Shown: in pieces, positions 2,531-62,552 of the stretch | Position numbering within the stretch: the first letter of the stretch is position 1 | How the letters are laid out: every line of letters begins with the position of its first letter | Assembly: GCF_016900315.1 (NCBI RefSeq) | Contig: NZ_JACSNQ010000001.1 | Location: forward strand, 124,001 to 188,000 | DNA: 64,000 nt | Direction of reading: 5' to 3' | From: Olsenella profusa | GTDB taxonomy: Bacteria > Actinomycetota > Coriobacteriia > Coriobacteriales > Atopobiaceae | The notes under the pieces: model-generated | Databases searched by the model: none | Told to the model about the DNA's origin: nothing | Seen by the model: the letters and a program-made list of their open reading frames with translations, nothing else | Position numbers and translations under genes: made by a program

Positions 2531-2571
2531 GGTTCTTCTCGCCGGGCGGGCCCGAGACCGCAGGGCCCGCC
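2531..2571. terminator. Hairpin between convergent genes, with dispersed motif attached
   Basis: GGCGGGCCC (2545-2553) pairs perfectly with GGGCCCGCC (2563-2571) around a 9-base loop, between the convergent oxidoreductase and lipid kinase genes. There is no clear U-tract, so termination is a guess. The dispersed word GGTTCTTCTCGCC occupies 2531-2543 and abuts the left arm. Confidence 0.4.
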
Positions 2572-2585
2572 TCCAGGCGGGTCCC

Positions 2586-3557
2586 CTACTTGGGGAAGGC
2601 GATGACGTCTGAGCCACCAAAGCGGGACGAGCCGTCGTCGGCGGTGCCGTAGGGGCTCATGGCGTCCACGACCATGCGGACCGCGCCGGGCAGCACCTGC
2701 GCCTCGTAGGAGCTCACGAGCTCCTCGACGACCTCGCCGTCAATCTCTATGGGCACGGGCTCCGAGCACGTCACGCGGATCTCGCGCCCCTTGAAGCTCT
2801 CGAGGTGCGGGCGGCCGATGGCCTTGCCGCTCTTGTCGACCAGCCCGAAGGCGAGGGGCTTCAGGAGCTGCGCGGCGTCCGAGGTCTCGAGCACTATGAC
2901 GTCGAGCAGCCCGTTGTCCATGCGGCAGTCCGGCACGAGCTGGATGTCCCCCTGGATCATGGCGCTGTTGGCCACGAGGCACGAGATGCCGTCGCGCTCG
3001 TGCGTACGGCCGTCCACGGTGATGGTGAAGTGGACCACGGCCGGGCGCGGGTTGGCGAGCGCCGCGGCGAAGTAGGCCGCCTGCCCCATGATGGCCTTGT
3101 TCGGCAGGGCGGCCTGCATGAGCTGGGCGTCGAAGCCCGTCCCTGACATGAGCGCAAAGCCGCGCACGCGCCGCTCGCCGCCCTCCGCCTCCCAGCCGAT
3201 CTCGCCGAGGTCGAGCTGCGCGGTCTTGCCCACGCGGCACGCGCGCGCCAGGGCCGAGGGCTCAGGCGCGTTGCCGACGTTGGCGCAGAATAGGTTGGCC
3301 GTTCCCGAGGGGAAGGCGCAGACGGGTACGTCGCGCCCGCGCAGCGCGTAGAGCAGCGCCGCCACGGTGCCGTCGCCGCCCGAGACCACCACCATGTCGA
3401 AGCGCTCGGCGTCGGCGCAGGCCTGGGCGGCGTCGAAGTCCCCCGCAAGCAGGCGCAGCACGCACTCGTCGCCGGCGCGGACGAGCGCCCGCTCAAACTG
3501 AAAGACGGCGTCTGAGCCGAAGCCCGACTTCGGGTTGTGGACGATGAGGGTGCGCAC
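2586..3557 (-). CDS. Diacylglycerol kinase family lipid kinase (DagK/YegS-like)
   Basis: A 323-residue protein of the DAGK catalytic family, cytosolic or membrane-associated, which phosphorylates diacylglycerol or a related lipid with ATP. It starts VRTLIVHNPKSGFGSDA with the nucleotide-binding NPKSG motif and has VVSGGDGTVAALL, the GGDGT signature, around residue 60. Length is typical. I place the start at the GTG at 3557 because GGGGAGGT lies 5 bases upstream and homology begins there. An ATG at 3656 would add 33 unlike residues and remove almost all leader. Convergent with the oxidoreductase, divergent from RNase D. Confidence 0.85.
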   Translation of the reverse strand: MRTLIVHNPKSGFGSDAVFQFERALVRAGDECVLRLLAGDFDAAQACADAERFDMVVVSGGDGTVAALLYALRGRDVPVCAFPSGTANLFCANVGNAPEPSALARACRVGKTAQLDLGEIGWEAEGGERRVRGFALMSGTGFDAQLMQAALPNKAIMGQAAYFAAALANPRPAVVHFTITVDGRTHERDGISCLVANSAMIQGDIQLVPDCRMDNGLLDVIVLETSDAAQLLKPLAFGLVDKSGKAIGRPHLESFKGREIRVTCSEPVPIEIDGEVVEELVSSYEAQVLPGAVRMVVDAMSPYGTADDGSSRFGGSDVIAFPK

Positions 3558-3682
3558 GGGTGACCTCCCCTGAGGGTGCGGCGTCTTTTGTGTCATCATA
3601 GTCCGGACGGCCCTGCCGATAAGCATCAGCCCGGGCCGGCAAGCCCAGTGTAGCAATCATTGCACGGAAGAATCGAGCGCCC

Positions 3683-4813: not shown

Positions 4814-4927
4814 GGGCTCGCGCATCGCGGCACGTCCGGGCACGGCTCCGGGGTCTGGGCCCGTGGTCCCGCGCTCCGCCCGGCGCGCGTGCTCGCGCCC
4901 CCGCCGTATTTCTGTCCGGTCGGTGGG

Positions 4928-7731: not shown

Positions 7732-7833
7732 CCGCCCGGCGGCGCCGGCCGCAGGCGCCGGCGCGTGCCGGGACGGGCTCCTCTCGCACAAAACCCACAC
7801 GACCCCCCGTTCTTCTCGCCGGGCGGGAGGGCG

Positions 7834-9061: not shown

Positions 9062-9091
9062 TCTTGCCCCTGCATTCCGCCTGAAGTGACG

Positions 9092-9141
9092 GCCCCGGTG
9101 ACCGCCGTGCCCGAGAAGGGCCGGGTCACCGGGGCGCTTTT
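9092..9141 (+). terminator. Rho-independent terminator of ackA
   Basis: GCCCCGGTGACC (9092-9103) pairs perfectly with GGTCACCGGGGC (9124-9135), followed by GCTTTTG. A 12-base-pair stem. Confidence 0.85.
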
Positions 9142-10029: not shown

Positions 10030-10032
10030 CGA

Positions 10033-11647: not shown

Positions 11648-11810
11648 CGTTTCCCCCGTTCACGTTGACGCGCGGCGGTCCCCGGGCCCTGCGCCCGAGG
11701 TTCTTCTCGCCCGCGACTGACTGTCCAACCCCTTTAGGTTATCGGTTTTGGGCGGCTCGGAAGTCTCCATGTTGCTGAATGGAGCACCTGGCGCGGTAGG
11801 TGGGGCGCTG

Positions 11811-13667: not shown

Positions 13668-13752
13668 GCCCCGGGATTTTTCGCGCAAGAAGGGAACTAT
13701 CCCCAATTAATAGGGTTCTTCTCGCCGAGCGAGCCGTGGGCAGGAGCCTGGG

Positions 13753-14870: not shown

Positions 14871-14950
14871 CAGGCGGACGATTGGGCGAGCGCGCTCGTC
14901 CTTCTCGCCCCCAGACGGGGGCTGCCTCGTAGCCTGCTGAGAGGAATGGT

Positions 14951-16185: not shown

Positions 16186-16251
16186 ATGCTGACGCAGCCG
16201 GCGCGAGGTTCTTCTCGCCTGCCGCGTGCAGGGCCCGGGGCGGCCCCTTGA

Positions 16252-18447: not shown

Positions 18448-19102
18448 GGGGTCCTCCCTTCTCGATGGCGCGCGCGACGAGGTCCTTCTCGCCGATGAGC
18501 GAGCCGAGCTCGCGGACGAGGCGTGACACGGGCAGGCCGACGACGTTTTGGTAGTCGCCGCGTATGGAGCGCACGAGCAGCCGACCGGCGCCCTGGATGC
18601 CGTAGGCGCCCGCCTTGTCACGGGGCTCGCCGCTGGCCACGTAGGCCGCGACCTCGGTCTCGGTGAGCTCCCAGAAGGTGACGTCGGTAGTCTCGACGAA
18701 GTATGTCTCGCGCGCCCCTCCCGCCACGGCTTGGTCAGGGGCGAGGAGACAGGCACCCGTGGAGACATGGTGCGTGCGGCCGGAGAGCTCGCGCAGCATC
18801 CGGGCCGCGTCGGCGTCGTCGGCGGGCTTGCCGAGCACCTCGCCGTCGTCGTCCCAGACGATGGTGTCCGCGGCCACGAGGGCCCGTGCGCCGTCCGTGC
18901 CGTCGAGCAGCCGTGACAGGACCGCGCGGGCCTTCTGGCGCGCGAGCCTCCCGACGAGCTCCACCGGGCTCTCCGCTTCGCGGCGCGTCTCGTCGATGTC
19001 CGCCGGCGCCACCGTGAGCGCAAAGCCGGCCTGCTCGAGCAGCTCGCGACGCCGCGGCGACTGCGACGCCAGAATCAGGTGCACGTTCTCTGTGGGTCCC
19101 AC
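18440..19102 (-). CDS. maf: Maf-like nucleotide pyrophosphatase
   Basis: A 220-residue Maf/HAM1-like protein, a house-cleaning pyrophosphatase for modified or non-canonical nucleotides that is also linked to septum control. Signatures: LILASQSPRRRELLEQAG at the start with the SxSPRR phosphate-binding motif, PADIDET, LVAADTIVWDDDGEVLGKP, and the late DKAGAYGIQGAG and VGLPVSRL. The C-terminal extension SLIGEKDLVARAIEKGGPLA is not part of the conserved domain, and its GEKD is encoded by the dispersed word (18481-18493). Coupled to the P1 peptidase downstream. Confidence 0.9.
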   Translation of the reverse strand: MGPTENVHLILASQSPRRRELLEQAGFALTVAPADIDETRREAESPVELVGRLARQKARAVLSRLLDGTDGARALVAADTIVWDDDGEVLGKPADDADAARMLRELSGRTHHVSTGACLLAPDQAVAGGARETYFVETTDVTFWELTETEVAAYVASGEPRDKAGAYGIQGAGRLLVRSIRGDYQNVVGLPVSRLVRELGSLIGEKDLVARAIEKGGPLA

Positions 19103-19565: not shown

Positions 19566-19739
19566 GACTCGCCCGTGGTCACGTCAAGTGGCTGAAGCGT
19601 GACTTCGAGCGAGCCGTGCATCAACGCCTCGTTCAAAGTCACGCAATCGGCGAGAAGAACGTGACGAAGAGCGAGTCGACCCGTTGAAACTCGCCCGAAG
19701 TCACGCTCTGAGAGGGCAAAGCGTGACTTCGGGCGAGTC
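19566..19739. repeat. Six alternating inverted repeats (GCGTGACTTCGGGCGAGTC family)
   Basis: Near-copies of the 19-base unit GCGTGACTTCGGGCGAGTC occur at 19566-19585 (reverse), 19597-19615 (forward), 19626-19644 (reverse), 19659-19677 (forward), 19688-19706 (reverse) and 19721-19739 (forward, exact). Neighbouring forward-reverse pairs can fold into hairpins. The dispersed word GGCGAGAAGAAC (19649-19660) lies between the second and third pairs. The whole 406-base gap 19383-19788 contains no gene I can support. Confidence 0.7.
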
Positions 19740-19788: not shown

Positions 19789-21120
19789 CTACGCGCGCTC
19801 GAGCAGCGTGACCGTCTCGACGTGGAAGGTCTGCGGGAACAGGTCGACCGGCGTCACGCGGGCGGGCGCGAAGGTGCCGGCCTCAGCAAAGCGGGCGAGG
19901 TCGCGCGCCAGCGTGGCCGGGTCGCAACTCACGTAGGCGATCGCGCGCGCCGGCTGCTCGGAGAGGCGGCTCACCACGTCGGCGGCAAGGCCCGCGCGCG
20001 GCGGGTCGACCACGATGACGTCGGCGTCCACGTCGGGGAACTCGCGCCCGGCGTCCCCGCCGATGGGGTCGACGTTGTCGAGCCCGGCGGAGTCGATGTT
20101 GCGGCGCAGGTCGCGCACGGCCGGTCCGTAGGACTCCACCGCGGAGACGAAGCCCGCACGACGCGCGAGCGGCAGCGTGAAGGTGCCTGCGCCGCAGTAG
20201 AGGTCCATGGCCTCCTCGTCCGCGGCGGGGCGGAGCGCCTCGAGCACGAGGTCGACGAGCTTCTCGGCGCCGCGCGTGTTCACCTGGAAGAAGGACGGGG
20301 CCGACACGCGCATGCGCTCGTCGCCTACCTGCTCGCCCCAGGAGCCCGCGCCGGAGAGACACTCGACCCCGGCGATCTTGCGGGCCTTGGCCGGGCCCTT
20401 CTGCATGACGCGCACCACCGAGGTGGGGGAGAGCGCGTCGGCGAGTACCTTGGCCGCCTGGGCGCGCGGGAAGCCGCCGGGACGGTCCCAGAGCGCCACC
20501 TCCACCTCGCGCGTGCGCTGGGAGACGCGGATGCCCACGCGCTCGAGGTCGAGGTGGTGGCTGCCCGCGAGGTAGCCGAGCGCGCCGGAGACGGCCTTCA
20601 CGGCCTTGGCGTGGCGGCGGTCCAGCAGGGCGCAGGACGTGACCTTCACCACGTCCTTCTCGCCCCGGCCGTGCATGCCCAGGGAGACGCGTCCGCCCTC
20701 GTGCGAGACGGCGAGCTCGACCTTGTTGCGGTAGCCCCATGGCTCGGACGGCGAGACGAGCGGCGCCACGAGGGCCTCGGCGCGCTCCGTGCCCATGCGG
20801 CCCACGCGCGCGAGGGCGTCGACCACGCCGGCGCGCTTGGCCTGCGTCTGCGCCTCGTAGGAGAGCGCGGCCCAGGGGCAGCCGCCGCAGACGCTCGCGT
20901 AGGGGCAGGCGGGCGTCACGCGCGCGTCCGAGCCTGAGAGCACCTCGAGGGTCGTCGCGTGCGCCCAGCGGTCCTCCTCGCGGTCGACGCGGACGCGGAC
21001 GGTGTCGCCCGCCACGGCGCCGCTCACAAAGATCGCCTTGCCCTCGGCGTCGTGCGCGACGGCGTCGGGGCCGTAGGACATGCGCTCGACGGTCAGCTCG
21101 AGCTCCCGTTGCTGGCTCAC
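19789..21120 (-). CDS. 23S rRNA/tRNA uracil-5-methyltransferase, RumA/TrmA family
   Basis: A 443-residue SAM-dependent RNA methyltransferase forming 5-methyluridine. An N-terminal TRAM-like RNA-binding domain covers about residues 5-65. ACPYASVCGGCPW at 71-83 (Cys72, Cys78, Cys81) with a later Cys near 162 forms the [4Fe-4S] site of the RumA branch. The SAM domain has MDLYCGAGTFTLPLA and VVDPPRAGL, and YVSCDPATLARD holds the catalytic cysteine. Which uridine is modified cannot be told. Start is GTG at 21120, overlapping the ppk stop by three bases (GTGA), so it is coupled to ppk. Confidence 0.92.
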   Translation of the reverse strand: MSQQRELELTVERMSYGPDAVAHDAEGKAIFVSGAVAGDTVRVRVDREEDRWAHATTLEVLSGSDARVTPACPYASVCGGCPWAALSYEAQTQAKRAGVVDALARVGRMGTERAEALVAPLVSPSEPWGYRNKVELAVSHEGGRVSLGMHGRGEKDVVKVTSCALLDRRHAKAVKAVSGALGYLAGSHHLDLERVGIRVSQRTREVEVALWDRPGGFPRAQAAKVLADALSPTSVVRVMQKGPAKARKIAGVECLSGAGSWGEQVGDERMRVSAPSFFQVNTRGAEKLVDLVLEALRPAADEEAMDLYCGAGTFTLPLARRAGFVSAVESYGPAVRDLRRNIDSAGLDNVDPIGGDAGREFPDVDADVIVVDPPRAGLAADVVSRLSEQPARAIAYVSCDPATLARDLARFAEAGTFAPARVTPVDLFPQTFHVETVTLLERA

Positions 21121-23723
21121 TCGTCACCCCCGCCAAAGAGGGTGCCGAAGGCCTGGCCAAAGAGGGAGAGCGCGCGCGAGACGCGACCGCGCTTGCGCGG
21201 CGCGGCAGCCGGCCGCGTGGGAGCGGGGGCCGGAGCTGCCGGGGCGGTGCGCTCCGGCGAGAAGGACGCGGGTGCCGCGGGCTCGCTCGGAGCCGTCGCG
21301 GCAGGCGTGGGCGTTGCGGGCGCGACCTCGGGCGCCGGCTGCGGCGCCGCGGGCTCGACGGCCTGCTCGACCGGCGTAGCCGGCTCGGCGGCGGCCTCGG
21401 CGACCTCCTCCGCGGGCTCCTCCCTCACCGAGGCGAGCGCGGGGACCGCGTCCTCGGCGGGCTTGATCTTCTCGGCGCGGCCGGCGCGGGAGCGCTCCTC
21501 CGCGGCGGCGCGGGCCCTCTGGTAGGCCTCCAGCAGCAGCTCCTCCTGGCAGTTCATGCGCGGGGCACCGGGGTCGGCGTCCACGTGCGCCCAGGTACCC
21601 TGGGCGGTGAGCTGGCGGGCCTTGACGTTGTCGGAGAGCTGGAGCCGCACGAAGTGTCGGACGATCTCCGAGCACGCCGGGTCGCGCACCGGGAAGGCGA
21701 TCTCCACGCGGCGCTCGGTGTTTCTCGTCATCATGTCGGCGCTGGAGAGGTAGATCGTGTCCATGTCCTCGCCGAAGGCGTAGATGCGGGCGTGCTCGAG
21801 GAAGCGGCCCGCGATCTGGCGCACCACGAGGCCGTCGGTCTTGCCGGGGACGCCCGCCTTGATGCAGCAGATGCCGCGGACGATCATCACGACCTTGACG
21901 CCCGCCTCGCAGGCCTCGGAGATCTTGTCGATGACGTCGCGGTCCGTGAGGGAGTTCATCTTGAGGACGACCTTGGCCGGCTCTCCGGCGCGGGCGTGGG
22001 AGATCTCGCGGTCGAGGCCGCGCATGACGAGCGGCTTCAGGCTCACCGGCGCCACGCCGAGGTGGCGGTAGGTGCCGCGAAGGTTGCCGAGCGAGAGGTT
22101 GCGGAAGAACGTGTTGCCGTCCGCGCCGATGCCCTCGTCGGCGGTGAGGAGCATGAAGTCGGAGTAGAGCTTGGCGGTCTTCTCGTTGAAGTTGCCGGTG
22201 CCGAGGCAGGTGATGCGGCTGATGCCGTCACGGTCGTGGTAGGTGATCTGGCAGATCTTGGAGTGGCACTTGAAGCCCTCGGAGCCGTAGATCACCGTGC
22301 AGCCGGCGTCTTCGAGACGCTCGGCCCAGGCGATGTTGTTCGCCTCGTCGAAGCGGGCGCGCAGCTCCATGAGCACGGTCACGTCCTTGCCGGCCTCGGC
22401 GGCGCTGATGAGGCTCTCGCAGAGGTGCGAGCTCTTGGCCACGCGGTAGAGCGTGATCTTGATGGAGATGCAGGCGTCGTCGCCGGAGGCCTCGCGCACG
22501 AGGCGCAGCAGCGGCGTCATGGACTCGTAGGGGTAGGTGAGCAGGACGTCGTGGTCCTCCACCTGGCCGCGCATGGGCTGGGAGAGGTCGACCATCGAGG
22601 AGATCTGCGGCTCGAAGGAGCGGAACACGCAGGCGGCGTGCTCGTGGTCGGGGATGTGGGACTCGAGCCCGTAGACGTAGCCGAGGTCGATGGGGCGGGT
22701 GAGGCGGAAGATGCGTCGCGGCTCCAGTGCGAGCTCGTCGGCGATGAAGCCCTCGAGCGCCTTGCCGAGCTTGCCGCGGATCTCAAGGCGCACCGGCTGG
22801 AGGCGCTGGCGGAGCTTGAGAACCTTCTTCATGTGCTGGCGGTAGTCCTCCTCCTCCTCGACGCCCTCGCCGTCCGGGTCGATGTCGGCGTTGCGGGTCA
22901 CGCGGATCACAGCCGAGCGCTTGGGGACGTAGTCGCCGAAGCACTGGTCGAGGCAGGTCTGGAGCACGTCCTCGAGCAGCGTGTAGCGCCACGCCTTGCC
23001 CGTGGAGGGCAGCGCCACCACGCGCTGCTCGGTGGCCGGGACCTCGATGATGCCCAGAAGGCCGGTCTCGTCCGTGCCGTCGAGCGAGCAGGCCACGAAG
23101 AGGCGGCCGTTCCTCAGGTTGGGGAAGGGGTGGCGCGGGTCGACGATGAGCGGCGAGATGATCGGCGCGAGCCGGCGGTCGAAGTGGCGCTGCACGGCCG
23201 CGCGGTCGGCCTCGGTGTAGTCGGCGGGGGAGACGCGCACGAGCCCGCGCTCGGCGAGAAGCGCCTCGACCTCGGCGAGCCCGCGCTCGTGGCGCTCGAT
23301 GAGCGGCGGCAGCGCCTCGAAGATGGCGTCGAGCTGCTCGGCAGGCGTCATGTTGGACTTGTTGTCCTTGGGCTGGTTCTTGAGGGAGGCGAGGTCGGAG
23401 AGGCCGCCCACGCGGATCATGAACCACTCGTCGAGGTTGGACTCCACGATCTCGCAGAACTTGAGGCGCTCGAAGATCGGCACGGCGGGGTCGTAGGCCT
23501 CGTCGAGGATGCGGTCGTCAAAGCGCAGCCAGCTGATCTCGCGGTTCTGGGTGTAGGAGAAGTCGCGCGCGGGCTTGTCCTTGCCGGACTTGGGGGACTT
23601 GTCCTTCTCGCCCTTCTCCGACTTGTCGCCCTTCTCGCCCTTGGCCGGCTTGACGCGGTCCTTCTCCTTGGGGCGCGTCTCGACGACGTCGGCGCGCGTG
23701 TCCTTGTCCAGTTCCTTGCTCAT
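21117..23723 (-). CDS. ppk: Polyphosphate kinase 1 with long charged and Ala/Pro-rich tails
   Basis: An 868-residue PPK1, which builds polyphosphate from ATP at the membrane. The catalytic core runs from about residue 60 (NREISWLRFDDRILDEA) to about 715, with GFKCHSKICQI holding the phosphorylated His487, GTGNFNEKTA, and GRFLEHARIYAF with the second histidine. It is 150-170 residues longer than usual: the first 55 residues are a Lys/Glu repeat (KGEKGDKSEKGEKDK) and the last 150 are Ala/Pro/Glu-rich, ending in a basic patch and LFGQAFGTLFGGGDE. ATG at 23723 follows GGAG. Coupled to the RNA methyltransferase. Confidence 0.95.
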   Translation of the reverse strand: MSKELDKDTRADVVETRPKEKDRVKPAKGEKGDKSEKGEKDKSPKSGKDKPARDFSYTQNREISWLRFDDRILDEAYDPAVPIFERLKFCEIVESNLDEWFMIRVGGLSDLASLKNQPKDNKSNMTPAEQLDAIFEALPPLIERHERGLAEVEALLAERGLVRVSPADYTEADRAAVQRHFDRRLAPIISPLIVDPRHPFPNLRNGRLFVACSLDGTDETGLLGIIEVPATEQRVVALPSTGKAWRYTLLEDVLQTCLDQCFGDYVPKRSAVIRVTRNADIDPDGEGVEEEEDYRQHMKKVLKLRQRLQPVRLEIRGKLGKALEGFIADELALEPRRIFRLTRPIDLGYVYGLESHIPDHEHAACVFRSFEPQISSMVDLSQPMRGQVEDHDVLLTYPYESMTPLLRLVREASGDDACISIKITLYRVAKSSHLCESLISAAEAGKDVTVLMELRARFDEANNIAWAERLEDAGCTVIYGSEGFKCHSKICQITYHDRDGISRITCLGTGNFNEKTAKLYSDFMLLTADEGIGADGNTFFRNLSLGNLRGTYRHLGVAPVSLKPLVMRGLDREISHARAGEPAKVVLKMNSLTDRDVIDKISEACEAGVKVVMIVRGICCIKAGVPGKTDGLVVRQIAGRFLEHARIYAFGEDMDTIYLSSADMMTRNTERRVEIAFPVRDPACSEIVRHFVRLQLSDNVKARQLTAQGTWAHVDADPGAPRMNCQEELLLEAYQRARAAAEERSRAGRAEKIKPAEDAVPALASVREEPAEEVAEAAAEPATPVEQAVEPAAPQPAPEVAPATPTPAATAPSEPAAPASFSPERTAPAAPAPAPTRPAAAPRKRGRVSRALSLFGQAFGTLFGGGDE

Positions 23724-23875: not shown

Positions 23876-25201
23876 GTGTACGAAGGACTCAACGTGCGCT
23901 CGGAGATCGGGCGCCTGCGCAAGGTCATGCTCTACCGGCCGGGGGCGGAGCTCCTGAACCTCTCACCGGACACCCTGGGGCCGCTGCTCTTTGACGACAT
24001 CCCCTTCCTCGAGGAGGCCCAGCGCGAGCACGACGCCTTCGCGCAGTTGCTGCGTGACGAGGGCGTGGAGGTGCTCTACCTCGACGAGCTCGTGGCCGAG
24101 GCGCTCGACGCGGCACCGGGGGCGCGTGCCGCCTTCTGCGAGCGCTGGATCGACGAGTCGGGCCTTGCGGGCCGCGCCGCGCGGCAGGCCGTGCGCGAGC
24201 TCCTCGATGACATTACGGACACCCGCGCGCTCGTGCGCCGCTGCATCGCCGGCGTGCGCGTGGACGAGCTCGGGCTCTCCCCGGCGCGCGCTGCGTCGCT
24301 CGCGGACCTCGTGCTCACGGACGCCAACGCGAGCACGCCCCTTGCCATCGACCCGATCCCCAACATCTACTTCACGCGCGACACCTTCTCCGTGATCGGC
24401 GCGGGCGCCTCCGTGAACCGCATGCTCACCACCACCCGCCGGCGCGAGAGCATCTTCGGCGAGTTCGTGCTGCGCCACCACCCCGTCTACGGCGGAGCGC
24501 CGCTCTGGTACACGCCGGAGGCCCCCTACCACATCGAGGGTGGCGACATCCTGGTCCTGGGCCCGGACGTGGTGGGCGTGGGCATCTCCGAGCGCACCTC
24601 GGCCGCGGCCGTGGACGTGCTCGCGCACCGCCTCCTCTGGGGCGGGACGGACCCGTCGGGCGGCGAGCGCCCCGGGCAGAGTGGTCCGGGCGCGGCGGGC
24701 GAGAAGAACCCGGCCGCGCTGCCCGACTCCGGCATCCGCCGGGTGATGGCCTTCTCGATCCCGCACAAGCGCTCCTTCATGCACCTCGACACCGTGTTCA
24801 CGCAGGTGGACGTCGACACCTTCACGGTGCACCCGGGCATCCTGGGGACGCTCCACGTCTTCGAGCTCACCCGCGGGGCGCGCCCCGGCGAGGTGACCAT
24901 CCGCGAACTCGACGAGTCGCTCGACGTGGCGCTTGCCCGCGCGCTCGGGCTGGATGCGGTCCGGCTCATCAAGTGCGGCGGGGACGATGCCATCGCCGCA
25001 GCGCGCGAGCAGTGGAACGACGGCTCCAACACGCTGGCCGTGCGGCCCGGGCGCGTCCTGGTCTACCAGCGAAACGCCGTCACCAACGACATCCTGGCGC
25101 GCGCGGGCGTCGAGCTTCTGGAGGTGCCCTCCGCCGAGCTCTCCCGCGGGCGCGGCGGCCCGCACTGCATGTCGATGGCTTTCTGGCGCGACGCGCTGTA
25201 G
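23876..25201 (+). CDS. arcA: Arginine deiminase with an internal low-complexity insert
   Basis: A 441-residue arginine deiminase (arginine to citrulline plus ammonia), first step of the ATP-yielding arginine deiminase route and of acid defence. Family motifs: SEIGRLRKVMLYRPG, FTRDTFSVIG, YHIEGGDI and, at the end, GRGGPHCMSM with catalytic Cys431. It is about 30 residues long for the family: residues 254-284 form a Gly/Pro/Ser-rich insert between ISERTSAAAVDVLAHRL and the conserved HKRSFMHLDT region. The insert contains GEKNP, encoded by the dispersed word (24698-24710). Start is GTG at 23876 after AGGGGAGG. arcB follows. Confidence 0.95.
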   Translation: MYEGLNVRSEIGRLRKVMLYRPGAELLNLSPDTLGPLLFDDIPFLEEAQREHDAFAQLLRDEGVEVLYLDELVAEALDAAPGARAAFCERWIDESGLAGRAARQAVRELLDDITDTRALVRRCIAGVRVDELGLSPARAASLADLVLTDANASTPLAIDPIPNIYFTRDTFSVIGAGASVNRMLTTTRRRESIFGEFVLRHHPVYGGAPLWYTPEAPYHIEGGDILVLGPDVVGVGISERTSAAAVDVLAHRLLWGGTDPSGGERPGQSGPGAAGEKNPAALPDSGIRRVMAFSIPHKRSFMHLDTVFTQVDVDTFTVHPGILGTLHVFELTRGARPGEVTIRELDESLDVALARALGLDAVRLIKCGGDDAIAAAREQWNDGSNTLAVRPGRVLVYQRNAVTNDILARAGVELLEVPSAELSRGRGGPHCMSMAFWRDAL

Positions 25202-25294
25202 GGGAGCGCCCGCCGGCCGCGGGTCCTTCTCGCCGGGCGCGTCGCGCCGGTTTCGCCCCGGTCAACGGGGTGCGCGACCGCCTGTGCCCTGAGG

Positions 25295-26333: not shown

Positions 26334-26413
26334 GACGACCGGGCGCCTGGCCCGGACCCCAGCGCCCGGCGAGAAGAACGCGCGGGGCGCTGAGGTGTTT
26401 TGCGCGCCTGGGC

Positions 26414-26701: not shown

Positions 26702-26752
26702 GGCGAGAAGAACGTCCCGAAGCCGACGCTTACGCCGAGCGTTCTTCTCGCC
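26702..26752. terminator. Inverted pair of dispersed words forming a 13-bp hairpin
   Basis: GGCGAGAAGAACG (26702-26714) and CGTTCTTCTCGCC (26740-26752) are exact reverse complements between the convergent arcB and trpS genes. Termination is inferred from position only. Confidence 0.45.
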
Positions 26753-29795: not shown

Positions 29796-31514
29796 ATGAG
29801 CTACGACAGGTACCCCGAGACGAGCGTCGAGGGCTTTGACAGCGAGGCCTGCGAGGGCGCCCAGGCGGTGCGCGAGCGCCTGGCGCAGATCGGGCGCGAC
29901 GTGCGGGTCCTCACCGTGGAGTGCTACCCGGGGGTGGACGAGGAGGTCTTCCGGCTCGTGCGCGACGCCTTCCGCCCCGACGTCGTGGTGCGCGGCGAGG
30001 ACGTCTTCTTCGACGGGGACACCCTCACTCGCATGATGCGCCCCCACCTCACCGACGACCGCGTGCGCGGCGTGATGTTCTACGGGCGCATGGAGGACTT
30101 CGTCGACCAGGAGGTTCTTCTCGCCGCGCGCGCCGCTATCCCCGCGACGGGGCGCGTGCTCGTCTACGGCGTGGGCGCGAGCCTCGTGAGCAGGGGAGAC
30201 GCGCTTGTCTACTGCGACCTTGCGCGCTGGGAGATAACGCTTCGCTACCGCGCCGGCATGCCCAACTTCAAGCAGCAAAACGGGGGCGAGGACCCCCTGC
30301 GCAAGATAAAGCGCGGCTACTTCGTGGAGTGGCGCATAGCCGACAAGCGCAAGGCGGCCCTGCTGGGGGACATCGACTGGCTGCTCGACTCCAACGAGCG
30401 GGGGTGTCCGCGCCTCGTCTCCGGCGAGGGCCTCCGGGCGGGCCTGCGCGCCGTGGCGAGAAGACCCTTCCGCCTGGTGCCCTACTTCGACCCGGGCGTG
30501 TGGGGCGGCCAGTGGATGAGGGAGGTCTGCGGGCTGGACAAAGACGCGCCCAACTACGCCTGGGCGTTTGACGGCGTGCCCGAGGAGAACAGCCTCTACC
30601 TGCGCTTCGGTGAGGTGCGCGTGGAGGTGCCGGCCATGGACCTGGTGCTCTTCCAGCCGGTCGAGCTGCTGGGGATGAGGAACTACTGCCGCTTCGGCGC
30701 GGAGTTTCCCATCCGCTTCGACTTCCTCGACACGATGGGCGGGCAGAACCTGAGCCTGCAGGTGCACCCGATGACCGAGTACATCCGGAGCCACTTTGGC
30801 ATGGCCTACACGCAGGACGAGAGCTACTACATCCTGGACGCGGCACCGGACGGCGCGGTCTACCTGGGCCTCAGGGACGGCGTGGACCCCGCCGAGATGG
30901 AGCGCGACCTGCGGCGCGCCCAGGAGGGCGGGCCGGCCTTCCCGGTGGAGCGCTACGTCAACCGCTTCCCGGCCAGGCGGCACGACCACTTTCTCATCCC
31001 CGCGGGCACGCCCCACTGCTCCGCGGCCAACACGATGGTGCTCGAGATCTCGGCCACGCCCTACAACTTCACGTTCAAGCTCTGGGACTGGGACCGGGTG
31101 GGCTTCGACGGGCTGCCGCGGCCCATCCACATCGACGACGGCATGCGCAACATCCAGTGGGGCCGGACGACCGCGTGGGTGCGCGAGAACCTCGTCAACG
31201 CCTGCGAGGTCGTGCAAGAGGGCGAGGGCTTCCGCGAGGAGCACACCGGCCTCCACGAGCTCGAGTTCATCGAGACCCGCCGCCTGACCGCGAGCCGGGC
31301 GACGGAGCACGACGCCTCCGAGGGCGTCAACGTGCTGAACCTCGTGGAGGGGGAGGCGGCCGTGGTGGAGAGCCCCGAGGGGAGCTTCGAGCCCCTGACG
31401 GTGCACTACGCGGAGACGTTCATCGTGCCGGCGGCGTGCGGGCGCTACACGATGCGCCCCGAGCGCGCGGGGGACACGATCGTGTTCGTGAAGGCCTTCG
31501 TGCGTCAGCGCTAG
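29796..31514 (+). CDS. Class I mannose-6-phosphate isomerase with extra N-terminal domain
   Basis: A 572-residue protein. From about residue 228 it is a type I phosphomannose isomerase: YFDPGVWGGQWM, GGQNLSLQVHPMTEY (zinc-binding Gln and His), DESYYIL (Glu) and LIPAGTPHCSAANTMVLEIS. It would convert mannose-6-phosphate and fructose-6-phosphate. The first 225 residues (VRVLTVECYPGVDEEVF, GVMFYGRMEDFVDQE, KIKRGYFVEWRIADK) are a separate domain I cannot name; no P-loop is present. ATG follows GAGGGAGG. The gene interrupts the minus-strand aro block and its stop overlaps the aroEK stop (CTAG). Codons at 30113-30125 carry the dispersed word, read EVLLA. Confidence 0.85.
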   Translation: MSYDRYPETSVEGFDSEACEGAQAVRERLAQIGRDVRVLTVECYPGVDEEVFRLVRDAFRPDVVVRGEDVFFDGDTLTRMMRPHLTDDRVRGVMFYGRMEDFVDQEVLLAARAAIPATGRVLVYGVGASLVSRGDALVYCDLARWEITLRYRAGMPNFKQQNGGEDPLRKIKRGYFVEWRIADKRKAALLGDIDWLLDSNERGCPRLVSGEGLRAGLRAVARRPFRLVPYFDPGVWGGQWMREVCGLDKDAPNYAWAFDGVPEENSLYLRFGEVRVEVPAMDLVLFQPVELLGMRNYCRFGAEFPIRFDFLDTMGGQNLSLQVHPMTEYIRSHFGMAYTQDESYYILDAAPDGAVYLGLRDGVDPAEMERDLRRAQEGGPAFPVERYVNRFPARRHDHFLIPAGTPHCSAANTMVLEISATPYNFTFKLWDWDRVGFDGLPRPIHIDDGMRNIQWGRTTAWVRENLVNACEVVQEGEGFREEHTGLHELEFIETRRLTASRATEHDASEGVNVLNLVEGEAAVVESPEGSFEPLTVHYAETFIVPAACGRYTMRPERAGDTIVFVKAFVRQR

Positions 31515-36531: not shown

Positions 36532-37656
36532 CTAGCGTCCGAGCTCGACGAGCTCGCGGAGCTCGTCGAGGCCCACGCGGCGGACCTCGCAGCGGCCGAC
36601 CTCCACGGGGACGACCACGTTGACCGCCTCCCCGTGGCGCTTCTTGTCGTGGGCCATGTAGTGCATGAGCAGGTCGGCCGGCAGCTCGCTTCCGGTGGGC
36701 AGGCCGTGGGCGGCCACGCAGCGCTCGATGCGCGTGGCCGTCTCGCCCGAGCACCAGCCGCGCCGCGCCGAGGCGCGCGCCATCATGCAGAGGCCGGCCG
36801 CCACGCAGGAGCCGTGGCCAAGCGTGAACTCGCTTGCCGCCTCGATGGCGTGGCCGATCGTGTGGCCGAGGTTGAGGGTCTGGCGCACGCCGGCCTCGCG
36901 CTCGTCGGCCTGTACCACGTCGCGCTTGATCTCGACGTTGCGCGCTACCACGTCGACGAGGCTCGCCTCGTCGTGGCGAAGCTTCGTGAGCGGGCGCTCG
37001 GTCAGGCGGTCGAGCAGGGCTGCGTCGGCAAGCACCGCGTGCTTGACCACCTCGCCGCAGGAGTCCCGGAAGAGCTCGTCGGGGACCGTGGCGAGGGTGC
37101 GGACGTCGGCCACCACGGCGCACGGCTGCCAGAAGGCGCCCGCGAGGTTCTTGCCGGCCTCCAGGTCCACGGCCGTTTTGCCGCCGACCGAGGAGTCCAC
37201 CATCGCAAGCAGCGAGGTCGGCACCTGTACCACGGCAACGCCGCGCAGGTAGAGGGCAGCGGCGAGGCCGGCCACGTCCCCGGCGACGCCGCCGCCGAGC
37301 GCGACCACCACGTCGGATCGGCCGAGCTCGCGTGCCGCGAGCGCCTCGAGGATCTCGCCCAGCGTGGAGAGGCGCTTGTGACGCTCGCCGGCGGGGAATA
37401 CCACGCGCTCGGCCACGTCGTAGCCGGCCGCCGCCAGAGACGCCTCGGCCGCGTCCGCGTAGAGCGGGGCCACGTGGGTCTCGCTCACCACGCAGCAGCG
37501 CGCGCCTCCCGCCGCCTCGCGGGCAACCGCGCCCAGCTCGGGGAGGATGCCGGCGCCCACGTGCACGTCGTAGGCCGCGGAGGCCCCCACGTGCACGAGG
37601 CGGGTCGCCACGCCCGGGTCCTTCTCGCCGCGCGTGTCGTCGCAACGCTCGCTCAT
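36532..37656 (-). CDS. aroB: 3-dehydroquinate synthase
   Basis: A 374-residue NAD- and zinc-dependent 3-dehydroquinate synthase, converting DAHP to 3-dehydroquinate. Characteristic: FPAGERHKRLSTLGEILEAL, VVALGGGVAGDVAGLAAA, VQVPTSLLAMVDSSVGGKTA near residue 130, the zinc ligands within CGEVVKHAVL, LNLGHTIGHAIE and later HGSCVAAGL. The first 18 residues (MSERCDDTRGEKDPGVAT) precede the domain; GEKD there is encoded by the dispersed word (37617-37629). ATG at 37656 overlaps the tyrA stop (ATGA). Confidence 0.96.
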   Translation of the reverse strand: MSERCDDTRGEKDPGVATRLVHVGASAAYDVHVGAGILPELGAVAREAAGGARCCVVSETHVAPLYADAAEASLAAAGYDVAERVVFPAGERHKRLSTLGEILEALAARELGRSDVVVALGGGVAGDVAGLAAALYLRGVAVVQVPTSLLAMVDSSVGGKTAVDLEAGKNLAGAFWQPCAVVADVRTLATVPDELFRDSCGEVVKHAVLADAALLDRLTERPLTKLRHDEASLVDVVARNVEIKRDVVQADEREAGVRQTLNLGHTIGHAIEAASEFTLGHGSCVAAGLCMMARASARRGWCSGETATRIERCVAAHGLPTGSELPADLLMHYMAHDKKRHGEAVNVVVPVEVGRCEVRRVGLDELRELVELGR

Positions 37657-39888: not shown

Positions 39889-39952
39889 GTGTCGTGGGGC
39901 GGTCCGTACGCACGGCTCTTCTCGCGGTTCTTCTCGCCTTGTGCGCTAGGCC

Positions 39953-40242: not shown

Positions 40243-42640
40243 ATGTCAGAGCGGGCGGGCCAGACCGACGGCGAGAAGAACCTCGGCCACCTCGGCCTCA
40301 CGGAGGCCGAGGTGGCCGAGCGCGTCGCCGCGGGCCGCACCAACGCCAACACCGACGTCAAGACCAAGTCCGTGCGCCAGATTGTGGCCGAGCACGCCCT
40401 AACGCTGTTCAACGCCGTGAACCTGGCGCTGGCCGTGCTCGTGCTCCTCACCGGGCAGTACCGAAACCTCCTCTTCATGGTCGTGGTCCTTGCCAACCTG
40501 CTGATCGGCGTGGTCCAGGAGGTCCGCGCCAAGCGCATGGTGGACAAGCTCACGATTCTCACCCAGAAGGAGGTCACCGTCATCCGCGCGGCCGGCGAGC
40601 TTTCGCTGCCCCCCTCCGAGCTCGTGGCCGACGACCTCGTCCGGCTGGCCCACGGCGACCAGGTGCCCGCCGACGCCGTGATCGTCTCCGGCAACGTCTC
40701 CATGAACGAGAGCCTGCTCACCGGCGAGGCCACCCCCGTCTCCAAGGGTCCCGGCGACGAGCTGCTCTCGGGCAGCTTCGTCGACGCCGGCAGCCTTGTG
40801 GCGCGCGTTACGCGCGTCGGCGCCGAGGGCTACGCCGCGCGGATCAACGCCGAGGCCAAGTACGTCAAGCCCGTCCGCTCGGAGATCCAGGACACGCTCA
40901 GGGCCATCATCCGCCTGGGCACCGAGGCGCTCGTGCCGCTGGGGCTCGGCCTCTTCCTGCGCAGCCTCCTCATGGACGGCGGCAGCCTCGAGGACGCGAT
41001 CCTCACCTCCGTGGCGGCCGTCATCGGCATGATCCCGCAGGGCCTCGTGCTGCTCACCTCTTCGGTGCTCGCCATCGCCACCTTCCGCCTGGGGCGCAGG
41101 ATGGTGCTCGTGCAGCAGACCTACTGCGTGGAGACGCTCGCGCGCGTGGACACGCTCTGCCTGGACAAGACCGGCACCATCACCACCGGCGAGATGGAGG
41201 TCGCAAGCGTCGTGGGCGCCCCCGGGACCTCCTCCGCCGAGGCGGCCCGCGCCCTTGTCGCCATCGCCTCAGCAAACGAGGCGGACGCCAACGAGACCGC
41301 CCGCGCGATCCTGCGCCACGCCGCCGAGAAGAACCTCGCGCCCGAGCCGGTCTCCCGCGCCGTGCCCTTCTCGTCCGCCCGCAAGCTCTCCGGCTGCGTC
41401 ACCGCCTCGGGCCGCGCGCTCGTCATGGGGGCGGCCGCCTTCGTGCTGGGGCCTGCGCGTACGGGCGAGGCCGACGCGCTCGCCCGCGCCTTCGACGCCA
41501 CCGAGCGCGTGCTCGTGGTGGGCGAGGCGGCAGGCTTTGACGAGGGGGGCGTCCCCGTCGGCGAGGTGCGCCTGCTCGGCTGCGTGGCCATCCGCGACGA
41601 GATTCGACCCACCGCCGAGGCGACCATGCGCTACTTCGTCGAGCAGGGCGTGGAGCTGCGCGTCATCTCCGGCGACGACCCGCGCACCGTCTCGGCCATC
41701 GCCGCGCGCGCCGGGGTGCCGCAGGCGGGCCGCTACGTGGACGCCACCACGCTCGACACCTCCGAGCGGCTCGAGGAGGCCGTCGACGCCGCGCGCGTCT
41801 TCGGCCGCGTGACGCCGCAGCAGAAGCGCGAGATCGTCCGCGCCCTGCACCGCCGCGGCCGCACCGTGGCCATGACCGGTGACGGCGTGAACGACGTGCT
41901 CGCCCTGCGCGAGGCGGACTGCTCGGTGGCCATGGCGTCGGGCTCGGCCGCGGCGCGCAACGTCTCCGAGATCGTCCTCGCCGACAACGACTTCGCCCAC
42001 ATGCCCGAGGTTGTGGCCGAGGGGCGCCGCTCGATCAACAACCTCCAGCGCTCCGCCGCGCTCTTCCTGGTCAAGACGGTCTTCACCGCGGTGCTTGCCC
42101 TCGTGTGCATCCTCATGCCGCCCTACCCGTTCATCCCCATCCAGATGTCGCTGCTCTCCACGGCCGTCATCGGCATCCCCTCGTTCGTGCTCGCCCTCGA
42201 GCCCAACCACGAGCTCGTCCGCGGCAACTTCCTCGCCAACGTCCTCGCGCGCTCGCTGCCCGCCTCGATCGCCATCGTGGTCGCGCTCGTGGCCGAGCTC
42301 GTCTGCGGCCGCGCCCTCGACCACTCCTTCGACGAGATCTCCACGGTCTGCACCGTGCTCGTGGCCTGCGTGGGCGTGGCGCTCGTGTGGAGGATCTCCC
42401 AGCCGCTCACGCCGCTGCGCGCGGTCCTTCTCGCCGTGATCGTGGCCATTGTTGCGCTTGGGTGTACGGTCTTTGCCCCATTCTTCGAGATCTCGGGACT
42501 TACGGGTAGCATGGGCGTGGTGATGGCCGCGGCGGGCGTCGCGGCCATCGCGTGCTTCAACTGGATGTATGACCGCGCCCAGCGCGGGTATGAGACCAAC
42601 GAGCGCTTCGCGCGCCTCGTGAGGATGGTGGAGGGCAGAC

Positions 42641-54300: not shown

Positions 54301-55242
54301 GTGGCAAAAGGCGGCTGGACGGCGGCGCGCGTGGCGGAGGTGCTCTCCTCCGGTCGTGCCGCGATCAAGGGACGAGACGCGCGTGTGGCCCTGCACGTCC
54401 GCGTGGACCCCACGTGCCCGCACTCGCTCGCGTGCGCGGTGAGAGACGCGCTCGTCCCCGAGCGCCCGGGCGGTGTGGTCGAGGTCTGCTCGCTTGCGAG
54501 CGAGCCCGGCTCCGGCGCCGAGCCCGTCGACGCGGCGCTCGTGCTCGTAGGGGTGGACGCCGCCGCTGCGGTGGGCGTGGCCGCCTCCTACGCGCGCTCG
54601 GGGGTGAACGTGGCCTTCGTGGTCGAGGGCGCCCTCGACGCCCCCGAGGTGGAGCTCCCCGAACAGGCGGCGGCGCTCGTGGGGGTCGTCGCCGCCTCGA
54701 GCGCCGAGGCCCTTCCCGATCGCCTCGCGGCCTGGCTCGCGCGCGTCTGCGCCCACCCGCTCGCCCTGGCGGCCAACTTCCCGGCCTGCCGGCGCGCCGT
54801 GGTCGACGCGCTCGTCGCGCGCTGCGCGGTGGAGAACGCCGCGGTGGGCGCGATCTCCCTCATCCCGGGCTCCGACCTTCCCATCATGTGCGCCAACCAG
54901 GCCAAGCTCGCCCTCGACGTGGCCGCGGCCTACGGCCGGGGCGTCGACGCCTCGCGGGCTGCCGAGCTCGCCGGGGTCCTCGCGGGCGGCCTCACCTGGC
55001 GCGCGCTGGCCCGCGCGCTCGTGGGCGCGCTGCCGGGCGTCGGGGGGCTCGTCAAGGCCGGCGTCGGCTTCGGCGGGACGATGGCCGTCGGGCAGGCGCT
55101 GCGCCTACGCTTCGAGGCGGAGGACGCCCTTGCCGGCCGTGACGCGCATGAGGGGGCAACGGGCGAGGCCGCGCCGGTCCTTCTCGCCACCGCAGAGGAC
55201 GCGGACGACGGCTACGTGACCATCGAGGGGGGTGCGGCATGA
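54301..55242 (+). CDS. DUF697-like protein of unknown function
   Basis: A 313-residue protein. Residues 180-270 resemble the DUF697 domain found in some GTPase-associated membrane proteins: AVGAISLIPGSDLPIMCANQ, LALDVAAAYGRG, and the glycine-rich ALPGVGGLVKAGVGFGGT that may enter the membrane. The first 175 residues are Ala/Val-rich with a Rossmann-like pattern (VDAALVLVGVDAAAA) but no P-loop. Start is GTG at 54301 after GAGGGGAGA. The last four bases overlap the radical SAM gene. Role unknown; position after rodA suggests an envelope link. Confidence 0.7.
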   Translation: MAKGGWTAARVAEVLSSGRAAIKGRDARVALHVRVDPTCPHSLACAVRDALVPERPGGVVEVCSLASEPGSGAEPVDAALVLVGVDAAAAVGVAASYARSGVNVAFVVEGALDAPEVELPEQAAALVGVVAASSAEALPDRLAAWLARVCAHPLALAANFPACRRAVVDALVARCAVENAAVGAISLIPGSDLPIMCANQAKLALDVAAAYGRGVDASRAAELAGVLAGGLTWRALARALVGALPGVGGLVKAGVGFGGTMAVGQALRLRFEAEDALAGRDAHEGATGEAAPVLLATAEDADDGYVTIEGGAA

Positions 55243-58627: not shown

Positions 58628-60154
<1,527 letters not shown>

Positions 60155-60155
60155 C

Positions 60156-61268
60156 ATGGCCGCCCCCGCGCTCGTGGTCGCCAAGGTCGGCTCGTCGACG
60201 CTCGTGGACGAAACGGGCGCCCTCGACGCCGCCTTCGTCCGCGAGCTCTGCGACCAGGTCGCGCGCCTCATGGCGGCCGGCACCCGCGTGGTGGTGGTCT
60301 CCTCGGGCGCCGTGGCGGCCGGCCGCGACGTCCTCGGCTTCTCCGAGCGCCCGACGGACATGGCGAGCCTGCAAGCCTGCGCCGCAGCCGGGCAGGCGCG
60401 CCTCACGCAGGCCTACGCCGACGTGCTCGCCGAGCGCGGCATCCCGTGCGCGCAGGTGCTGCTCACCCGGCGCGACGTCATGGACCGCGAGGCGTTCCTG
60501 AGCGCGCGCACCACGCTGACGCGCCTTCTCGAGCTCGGCGCGGTGCCCGTGGTCAACGAGAACGACACCATCTCGACGGCCGAGTTTGCCTTCGGCGACA
60601 ACGACATGCTCGGCGCGCTCGTGGCGGCCCTTGCGGGCGCCGAACTCTACGTCATCCTGTCCGACGTCGACGGGCTCTACACCGCGAACCCGCAGGAGGA
60701 CCCGGACGCCCGCCTCATCGAGCGCGTGAGCGAGGTGGACCACGCCATCACGGCCATGGCCGGCGGCGCCGGCACCTCCTTCGGCACGGGCGGGATGTCC
60801 TCCAAGCTCCGTGCCGCGCGCGCCATGCTCGCCGCAGGCGTGCCCACCGTGATCTGCCGCGGACGGCGCCCGGACGCCCTTGTGGACGTGGCGTCCGGTC
60901 AGCCCGTCGGCACCCGCTTCGAGGCCCCTGCCGGCGCGCCGCACGAGGGCGGCCGCAAGCTCTGGATCGGCCTTGCCGAGGTGCCGCGCGGCACCATCGC
61001 GCTCGACGCCGGCGCCGAGCGCGCGGTGCTCGAGCGCGGGGCCTCGATCCTGCCGGTGGGCGTGGCGTCCACGAGCGGCACCTACGCCGCCGGGGACGTG
61101 GTCTCGGTGACCACGGAGTCCGGCGAGCTCATCGGGCGCGGCATCGCCCGCTACTCCTCGGAGGACATGCAGCGCGTGCGGGGCCTGCGCCTGGACGTCA
61201 TCGCGCGCTTCCTCGGCGAGGCGGGCGCCCAGCCGGCCGTGCACCGAGACGACCTGCTCGTGTTCTGA
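60156..61268 (+). CDS. proB: Glutamate 5-kinase
   Basis: A 370-residue first enzyme of proline synthesis, phosphorylating glutamate. The amino-acid kinase domain covers about 1-260: VVAKVGSSTLVDE, VVVVSSGAVAAGRDVLG, PVVNENDTISTAEFAFGDND, ILSDVDGLYTANP and GTSFGTGGMSSKLRAA. A PUA domain follows at about 280-360. ATG at 60156 is one base after the obgE stop with GGGGAGGA before it. proA follows after 24 bases. Confidence 0.96.
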   Translation: MAAPALVVAKVGSSTLVDETGALDAAFVRELCDQVARLMAAGTRVVVVSSGAVAAGRDVLGFSERPTDMASLQACAAAGQARLTQAYADVLAERGIPCAQVLLTRRDVMDREAFLSARTTLTRLLELGAVPVVNENDTISTAEFAFGDNDMLGALVAALAGAELYVILSDVDGLYTANPQEDPDARLIERVSEVDHAITAMAGGAGTSFGTGGMSSKLRAARAMLAAGVPTVICRGRRPDALVDVASGQPVGTRFEAPAGAPHEGGRKLWIGLAEVPRGTIALDAGAERAVLERGASILPVGVASTSGTYAAGDVVSVTTESGELIGRGIARYSSEDMQRVRGLRLDVIARFLGEAGAQPAVHRDDLLVF

Positions 61269-61292
61269 GAGACCAACGTGAGGGGAGAGACC

Positions 61293-62552
61293 ATGTCAGA
61301 GGCACTGAGGAAGGCACAGCTCGCCCGGGACGCCGCGCCCGCGCTCGCCGCGGCGGCGGCCGGCGTGCGATCGGGAGCCATCGCGGCCGCCGGGCGCCTC
61401 ATCCTCGAGCGTGCCGACGAGATCTGCGCCGCCAACGCCCGCGACCTCTCGCGCGCCCGGGCGGCGGGCATGAGTGCGCCGCTCCAGGACCGTCTGCTGC
61501 TCGACCATGCGCGTCTTGCGTCCATCGCCTCCTCGCTCGAGGAGATCTCGCGCCAGGCGGACCCGCTCGGGCGCGTGCTGGGCGGCTCGACGCTCGCCTG
61601 CGGGGCGCGCGTCGAGCAGGTCCGCGTGCCGCTCGGCGTGGTCGCCATCGTCTACGAGGCGCGCCCCAACGTCACGGCCGACGCCTTCGCCCTCTGCGTG
61701 CGCTCCGGCAACGCCTGCGTCCTCAAGGGAGGGTCTGCGGCCAATGAGTCGTGCGCCGCGCTCGCCGCCGCCTGCGCCGACGCGCTCGCCGAGGCGGGCC
61801 TGCCCGTGGGCGCCGTGCAGTACGTGGCCGACGACGCGGCCCACACCGAGACCGCCGCGCTCATCCGCGCCCGCGGCCTCGTCGACGTGCTCATCCCGCG
61901 CGGCGGCGCCTCGCTCATCCGCTCCTGCGTGGAGGGCGCCACGGTGCCCGTCATCGAGACCGGCACCGGCAACTGCCACATCTACCTGCACCGCGACGCT
62001 GACGTCCAGAAGGCGGTGGACATCGTCGTCAACGCCAAGTGCAGCCGTCCCGGCGTCTGCAACGCCGCCGAGTCCCTGCTCGTGGACGCCTGCGCCGCCG
62101 AGCGCCTCCTGCCGCCCGTCCTTCTCGCCCTCTCCGGGCACGGGGTCGAGCTCGTGGGGGACGCCCGCGCCCGTCAGGTGGCCGAGGCCGCCGGCGTGGC
62201 CATGGGGGAGGCGAGCGAGGAGGACTGGGGCACCGAGTATTTGGACCTCAAGATGAGCGTCGCGTGCGTGGAGGACGTCGACGCCGCCGTCGCGCACGTC
62301 AACCGCTACAGCACGCACCACTCCGAGGCCATCGTGAGCGAGTCCTACGCCGCCTGCGAGCGCTTCCTGGCGGGCGTCGACTCGGCGGCCGTCTACGCCA
62401 ACGCCTCCACGCGCTTTACTGACGGCGGCGTCTTCGGGCTGGGCGGCGAGATCGGCATCTCCACGCAGAAGCTCCACGCCCGCGGCCCGATGGGGGCCGA
62501 GGCCCTCACCACCACCAAGTACGTGGTCCGCGGGGAGGGGCAGGTCCGATGA
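61293..62552 (+). CDS. proA: Glutamate-5-semialdehyde dehydrogenase (gamma-glutamyl phosphate reductase)
   Basis: A 419-residue second proline enzyme, reducing glutamyl phosphate with NADPH. Family parts: VRVPLGVVAIVYEARPNVT, CVLKGGSAANES, LIPRGGASLIRSCVEGATVP, ETGTGNCHIYLHRDAD, and CSRPGVCNAAESLLVD with catalytic Cys256, then GGVFGLGGEIGISTQKLHARGP split over the end. ATG at 61293 follows GGGGAGAG. Its stop overlaps the nadD start (ATGA). Confidence 0.95.
   Translation: MSEALRKAQLARDAAPALAAAAAGVRSGAIAAAGRLILERADEICAANARDLSRARAAGMSAPLQDRLLLDHARLASIASSLEEISRQADPLGRVLGGSTLACGARVEQVRVPLGVVAIVYEARPNVTADAFALCVRSGNACVLKGGSAANESCAALAAACADALAEAGLPVGAVQYVADDAAHTETAALIRARGLVDVLIPRGGASLIRSCVEGATVPVIETGTGNCHIYLHRDADVQKAVDIVVNAKCSRPGVCNAAESLLVDACAAERLLPPVLLALSGHGVELVGDARARQVAEAAGVAMGEASEEDWGTEYLDLKMSVACVEDVDAAVAHVNRYSTHHSEAIVSESYAACERFLAGVDSAAVYANASTRFTDGGVFGLGGEIGISTQKLHARGPMGAEALTTTKYVVRGEGQVR

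Follow-up and report, generated by a model that had tools for sequence, protein, structure and literature searches.

According to a paper of 2025, uptake words have been named for only two families (PMC12616744). The DNA uptake sequences (DUS) of Neisseria and the uptake signal sequences (USS) of Haemophilus are described as non-palindromic, free of orientation bias and more frequent in noncoding DNA than expected, features that the same account attributes to biased uptake together with mutation; 35% and 65% of the copies lie inside genes in two model species (PMC1939737). The DUS of the Neisseriaceae come in dialects with a common core (PMC3630211). For USS, the receptor is predicted to be PpdA/ComN. 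As for the pili involved, transformation of Micrococcus luteus requires Flp/Tad pili (PMC6370729), and DNA uptake in Liberibacter crescens is lowered by mutation of cpaF (PMC8513845). Here we describe a 12-base word, consensus GTYCTTCTCGCC, that is scattered through a 64,000-nucleotide stretch of contig NZ_JACSNQ010000001.1 (the whole stretch analyzed, hereafter the window) and through the rest of its genome. Judging from its sequence, distribution and relatives, we consider it likely, with a probability of about 0.72, that the word serves a lineage of the Atopobiaceae as its DNA uptake sequence.

The word resembles the DUS of the Neisseriaceae, whose binding protein is ComP, in being a 10-12-bp asymmetric word present in many copies, unoriented, in excess between genes and split into dialects with a common core (PMC3630211, PMC1939737). 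It differs from them in its unrelated sequence, in its Gram-positive-type actinobacterial host and in the sole T2SSE ATPase of that host, which is of the Tad type. Inverted pairs are not favored here, whereas inverted DUS pairs in Neisseria go with terminators (PMC3630211). With the USS of the Pasteurellaceae, which have two dialects in the family, the word shares its shortness, abundance and asymmetry (PMC12616744). Its sequence is again unrelated, and USS use Gram-negative type IV pilus machinery. USS also have AT-rich flanks, of which our word shows none. Chi and the FtsK-orienting polar sequences (KOPS) are short, asymmetric, over-represented words as well, polar relative to replication; our word shares their form and differs by the absence of polarity. 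As to machinery, the nearest parallel is again M. luteus, an actinobacterium in which comEA and comEC are accompanied by Tad/Flp pili instead of ComG (PMC6370729); no uptake sequence is named in the accounts of that system that we found. The features of the word agree with those published for the DUS of Neisseria and the USS of Haemophilus more closely than with those of Chi, KOPS, matS, promoters, terminators or mobile repeats.

Abundance and anatomy of the word

A sequence-only reading had reported 24 copies of the word in the window, and all of them match in coordinate and strand; dinucleotide shuffles yielded a mean of 0.04 and a maximum of 1 (100 shuffles). Nine copies were confirmed as the 13-mer GGTTCTTCTCGCC (7 forward, 2 reverse), and 12 of the 24 do lie between genes by independent gene calls (54 genes, covering 90.5% of the window). 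The 18:6 strand bias of the window copies is local. Genome-wide the word occurs 855 times, 442 times on the forward and 413 times on the reverse strand, or about once per 2.4 kb, against a single copy of the reversed word (assembly of 2.07 Mb in 56 contigs, 93% complete); the enrichment is thus not limited to the window.

The anatomy of the word was studied in a 464-kb sample made up of the window and 20 further stretches, 22% of the genome. Among its 219 copies, 132 are noncoding, that is, outside our own gene calls (1.76 per kb), and 87 are coding (0.22 per kb), an eight-fold difference in density. An order-3 Markov model predicts 0.2 exact noncoding copies, and 50 synonymous-codon shuffles of the genes gave 35.8 words (standard deviation 3.9, maximum 44) against the 87 observed, so that the excess proposed from the window stood up to both composition and codon controls. 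Exact, one-mismatch and two-mismatch copies number 132, 65 and 52 in noncoding DNA (expected 0.2, 5.2 and 40.6) and 87, 152 and 366 in coding DNA (expected 1.1, 26.8 and 222). In noncoding DNA, then, exact copies exceed one-mismatch copies, and the mismatched copies too are above expectation. Single mismatches cluster at positions 2 and 11, where 35 of the 65 in noncoding DNA and 108 of the 152 in coding DNA are found.

The list of 12-mers, ranked by excess over the Markov model, is headed by GTTCTTCTCGCC (125 copies, 0.73 expected), its shift GGTTCTTCTCGC and GTCCTTCTCGCC (94 copies, 0.9 expected); the rest of the top 14 are mostly shifts or extensions of the word, with GTGTACGTACCC belonging to a different family. 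Around the consensus GTYCTTCTCGCC, A is weakly favored at the second base upstream and G at the first base downstream. The flanks are otherwise barely conserved, with A at -2 in about half of the copies, G or C at -1 and G at +1 in about half, and such weak preferences imply that the word does not belong to any longer repeat. Copies inside genes fall mainly into two phase-0 registers, 52 on the opposite strand and 23 on the same strand, the favored frames reading, for example, Gly-Glu-Lys-Asn/Asp in 52 and Val-Leu-Leu-Ala in 23 of the 87 copies. A codon artefact as the origin of the word was rejected in view of the noncoding excess and of the excess over synonymous shuffles. The contrast word CGGAGAGC, with 109 of its 134 copies in one strand and frame of genes, probably owes its abundance to a codon effect.

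Dialects in relatives and a word-free prophage

The phosphoenolpyruvate (PEP) carboxykinase encoded in the window is 94-96% identical to those of Thermophilibacter provencensis, T. mediterraneus and T. gallinarum and 98% identical to that of an uncultured member of the Atopobiaceae. These identities place the host, by sequence, as a Thermophilibacter-like member of the Atopobiaceae (Coriobacteriia, Actinomycetota). Among 31 congeneric genomes, 30 carry 227-855 copies of the word and one, G208, carries 40 (reversed-word controls 0-4). In a set of 61 genomes of the family, genus g30 has 291 and 305 copies and other genera 0-144, and in a class-wide set of 197 genomes the other families have 0-15, except for genus g51. 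In that genus, which belongs to another family, G161 has 44 copies of the word and 4 of its reverse, and G222 has 48 and 1; both exceed the other genomes of their family. A loose pattern, GNNCTTCTCGNC, is found 2017-2355 times in the four genomes that represent the own genus in the family set (control 101-125) and 1348-1676 times in eight other genomes of that set; codon usage accounts for part of these counts.

Dialects built on a common G--(C/T)TTCTCG core were found in genomes sampled from several other genera. Their forms are GYYCTTCTCGCC(C) in G052, GCNCTTCTCGCC(G/T) in G016, GCTCTTCTCG in G048, YTTCTCGGCA(G) in G047 and GtNCTTCTCGCca in genus g14. The noncoding context of CTTCTCG reads G(T/C)(C/T)CTTCTCG(C/G)C in G055, a member of the own genus, G(C/T)(T/C)CTTCTCGCC(C) in G052 and GC-CTTCTCGCC(G/T) in G016. 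Word excess over all DNA gave (C/T)TTCTCGGCA(G) for G047, GCTCTTCTCG for G048 and CTTCTCGCCA for G011 and for genus g14, the last figure pooling G042 with two stretches of G014, of the same genus, which stands at 52% GC. Motif refinement returned G-cyTTCTCGGCA for G047, GmyCTTCTCG for G048 and Gt-CTTCTCG for G042, with C, C and A, respectively, as the next base; for the own genome, G055 and G016 it drifted to codon structure, and noncoding counts were used there. In the six relatives counted with gene calls, the noncoding density of the dialect words is 2.2 to 8 times the coding density, and their strands are balanced (per kb, noncoding and coding: G055, 1.69 and 0.39; G227, 0.46 and 0.16; G052, 0.41 and 0.17; G016, 0.73 and 0.09; G048, 0.91 and 0.41; G047, 0.95 and 0.29). 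No dominant word emerged from 80-100 kb samples of G060, G037, G012, G017, G024, G028 and G021, which belong to other genera; absence from a small sample is a weak result, as G003, with 638 copies genome-wide, showed no dominant word in 34 kb, and none was seen in 20 kb of G029. G026, G036 and G054 were left out, their stretches being too short.

The complete chromosome of G052 (genus g30) was sampled in 20 stretches 120 kb apart, and GYYCTTCTCGCC was present at 17 of the 20 places. One of the three word-free stretches (L127:1-20000) is a prophage, recognized by PHROG matches to helicase loader, terminase, portal, head and tail proteins and lower in GC (0.599). Over 20 to 21.7 kb this single element has no dialect word, against an expectation of about 5, and a contig from a viral collection with a terminase 100% identical to its own has none either. 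The terminase family PF03354 (TerL_ATPase) gave no match in the 31 genus genomes.

Competence genes and competing explanations

A search of the own genome for competence and pilus genes returned comEA-comEC at the start of a contig and a Tad/Flp pilus cluster with CpaB-, CpaE-, CpaF-, TadB-, TadC-, Flp- and TadE/TadG-like genes; CpaF, TadB, TadC and CpaB have Pfam matches, and the others are named from their position and the look of their sequence. The single T2SSE ATPase match is of the Tad type. The word is probably read by this Tad-pilus competence machinery: we infer that the com and Tad genes would make the cell competent, that the word would bias uptake and that the receptor may be a Tad pilin. 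One might picture a surface-exposed protein of the competence apparatus, most plausibly one of the minor subunits of the Tad/Flp pilus, binding word-bearing double-stranded DNA in either orientation. The pilus would deliver this DNA to ComEA and ComEC, and one strand would enter and recombine. Since word-bearing fragments would be imported and recombined more often, the word would accumulate, through point mutation and biased uptake, wherever sequence can vary, that is, in intergenic DNA and tolerant codons, and drift in receptor preference would give rise to dialects. The asymmetry of the word, its intergenic preference, the excess of exact over one-mismatch copies, the dialects with their common core and the comEA, comEC and Tad genes all fit an uptake role.

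Several observations weigh against such a role. ComEC and the T2SSE ATPase occur in 60 of the 61 family genomes and in all 31 genus genomes; com and Tad genes are thus found both in genomes that carry the word and in genomes that lack it, the machinery is no predictor of the word, and the presence of ComEC or of the pilus ATPase failed to discriminate as a correlate. G208, a complete congeneric genome, has its 40 words (3 in a 200-kb sample) alongside comEA, comEC and Tad genes that look intact, so that gene loss was rejected as the cause of their scarcity. Its Tad and comEA/comEC proteins resemble the own ones to about the same degree as do those of the word-rich G227, where both were compared, and its noncoding DNA shows no flanking consensus around TTCTCG (loci L203-L212, L223, L225). 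Comparison of the Tad proteins of the own genome, G227 and G208 singled out no candidate for a word-specific surface receptor. The case of G208 and the missing correlation between machinery and word may mean that uptake bias was lost at the level of the receptor, or that the role of the word is a different one. Nor are bearers and non-bearers sharply separated: in noncoding DNA, TTCTCG stands at 0.6 to 3.2 times simple expectation in the seven genomes with no dominant word and at 4.3 times in G208. The dialect words were picked and counted on the same samples, and genes missed in our calls give some false intergenic sites. With the bare core CTTCTCG, the intergenic preference is lost in G052 (0.99 noncoding versus 1.12 coding per kb) and G048 (1.02 versus 1.38 per kb), because a codon-favored frame also yields CTTCTCG; in the one prophage sampled, this core is only mildly rarer (0.70 versus 1.11 per kb). 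Finally, a survey of the open literature, judged by the titles listed, found no uptake or transformation experiment on these organisms.

The alternative that survives best, which we nevertheless consider unlikely, is a binding site for a chromosome-organizing protein, nucleoid-associated or concerned with segregation, that needs many dispersed copies. Such a site would agree with a word that is spread genome-wide, biased to intergenic DNA and absent from the prophage, and with its non-random spacing, gaps of 100-1000 bp being fewer than an exponential distribution predicts and gaps below 100 bp more numerous (28 versus 10.2). It would need no competence, and so the missing correlation with com genes is no argument against it. 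However, the word is not palindromic, as the sites of most dimeric proteins are, and genus dialects and a near-loss in G208 would be odd for an essential site. Nor does it have the strand polarity that KOPS require: on G052, the counts of GYYCTTCTCGCC on the two strands are 17 and 17 in the first eight stretches and 28 and 24 in the other twelve (split at the turn of GC skew, the origin not being mapped). Polarity of the Chi or KOPS type was thus rejected, there being none in the sampled contigs, in the whole-genome count or along G052. The spread of the dialect word around G052 likewise led us to reject confinement to one region, as for matS or parS. Of the roles put forward in the sequence-only reading, then, the uptake sequence gained ground, the Chi-like hot spot and the KOPS-like and matS/parS-like segregation sites lost ground, and a dispersed site for a nucleoid protein is still a rival.

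We regard as very improbable a Chi-type recombination hot spot acting on a repair helicase-nuclease. Asymmetry and great abundance would suit it, but an orientation with respect to replication would be expected, and not only the strand counts of G052 but also neighbors of the own word more than 500 bp apart are balanced, all orientations being about equally frequent (-+ 41, +- 39, ++ 36, -- 29). Equally doubtful is an element acting at the level of transcription, be it a regulator site, part of a promoter or a terminator stem. Of the evidence already given, the 132 noncoding copies among 219 and the excess of close pairs speak for it. On the other hand, 87 copies lie within genes, and 17 of the 28 pairs closer than 100 bp are inverted, near half, so that inverted pairs are not favored and terminator pairs were rejected. 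Among the 128 of the 132 noncoding words that could be typed by gap, having a gene on both sides, 75 lie in 41.9 kb of tandem-gene gaps, 41 along the genes and 34 against them, 30 in 14.6 kb of convergent gaps and 23 in 15.2 kb of divergent gaps; density is alike in all three, with no clear preference or fixed relation to genes. Least probable of all is that the word was left behind by a mobile repeat or reflects codon usage and composition: the in-gene copies do favor certain frames, which also inflate the loose core, but the barely conserved flanks led to rejection of a mobile repeat, relatives mostly differ by substitution at the in-gene site 20653, and the word exceeds both the noncoding expectation and the synonymous shuffles and persists at 52% GC in genus g14.

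Sites in the window and what the word may mean

Ten of the intergenic sites in the window have the form GTTCTTCTCGCC. They lie between convergent genes (2532..2543, +; 13715..13726, +; 26368..26379, -), upstream of acetate kinase (7809..7820, +), between divergent genes upstream of PEP carboxykinase (11700..11711, +), between tandem genes (16208..16219, +; 19649..19660, -), in an inverted pair (26702..26713, -, and 26741..26752, +) and downstream of tRNA-Arg (39927..39938, +). The form GTCCTTCTCGCC is found between divergent genes (14898..14909, +), where the same or a GTT form recurs in some of the 22 aligned loci of relatives, and between tandem genes (25223..25234, +). Inside genes, GTTCTTCTCGCC is carried by those for arginine deiminase (24698..24709, -), a protein with shikimate dehydrogenase and kinase domains (32849..32860, +) and an E1-E2 ATPase (40270..40281, -), and by a further gene (30114..30125, +). 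GTCCTTCTCGCC is carried twice by the polyphosphate kinase gene (21256..21267, -; 23601..23612, +) and once each by those for 3-dehydroquinate synthase (37618..37629, +), an E1-E2 ATPase (42424..42435, +) and a member of the aldehyde dehydrogenase family (62118..62129, +), and by genes at 18482..18493 (+), 55177..55188 (+) and 20653..20664 (+); at the last site, the aligned relatives listed mostly have a substituted sequence of the same length, and a few have gaps. Eleven window sites were tried against 23 Thermophilibacter-like loci: three align in at least 10 loci (22, 18 and 16), five in one to six and three in none, and with so few alignable sites the turnover of the word is hardly measured. 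The 40 window proteins scanned against Pfam are mostly housekeeping; the window holds one tRNA and, after acetate kinase, 1.2 kb without a called gene (9062-10272).

Two other repeat families were noted in noncoding DNA. TGTACGTACCC has 31 copies in the 464-kb sample, all noncoding and mostly in arrays of ~21-22 bp period inverted about a center (L087:15645-15792, L093:12732-12878, L095:6005-6280, L096:8616-8783, L089:12374-12503, L086:4075-4200). At four places the center of the array holds two copies of the word, inverted relative to each other and 45 bp apart, with GACGTTTYCGCAG between them. A second iteron family, TTCCTAAC (mostly GATTCCTAACG), has 24 copies, often ~41 bp apart in inverted arrays; it is represented in the window at 39953-39960 (-) and 40042-40049 (+), and elsewhere at L089:5767-6028, L087:14219-14439 and L099:18318-19985.

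No report of an uptake sequence in Coriobacteriia was found in the open literature, judged by the titles listed; the letters of the word itself turn up in 8 papers, all under unrelated titles. If our interpretation of the word as an uptake sequence is correct, it would be the first DNA uptake sequence outside Proteobacteria. We lean toward the view that it marks a third, independent origin of self-recognizing uptake, without precedent in Gram-positives or in association with a Tad/Flp pilus, and that its dialects, at least five at the level of genera, may keep gut Atopobiaceae from mating across genus lines. Such an independent case, in Actinomycetota and with another type of pilus, would put to the test the idea that receptor bias and molecular drive shape the evolution of uptake specificity. 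It would also offer a practical route to the genetics of these bacteria, namely to include the right word in the DNA, and it would mean that common gut anaerobes exchange, or recently exchanged, genes by transformation.

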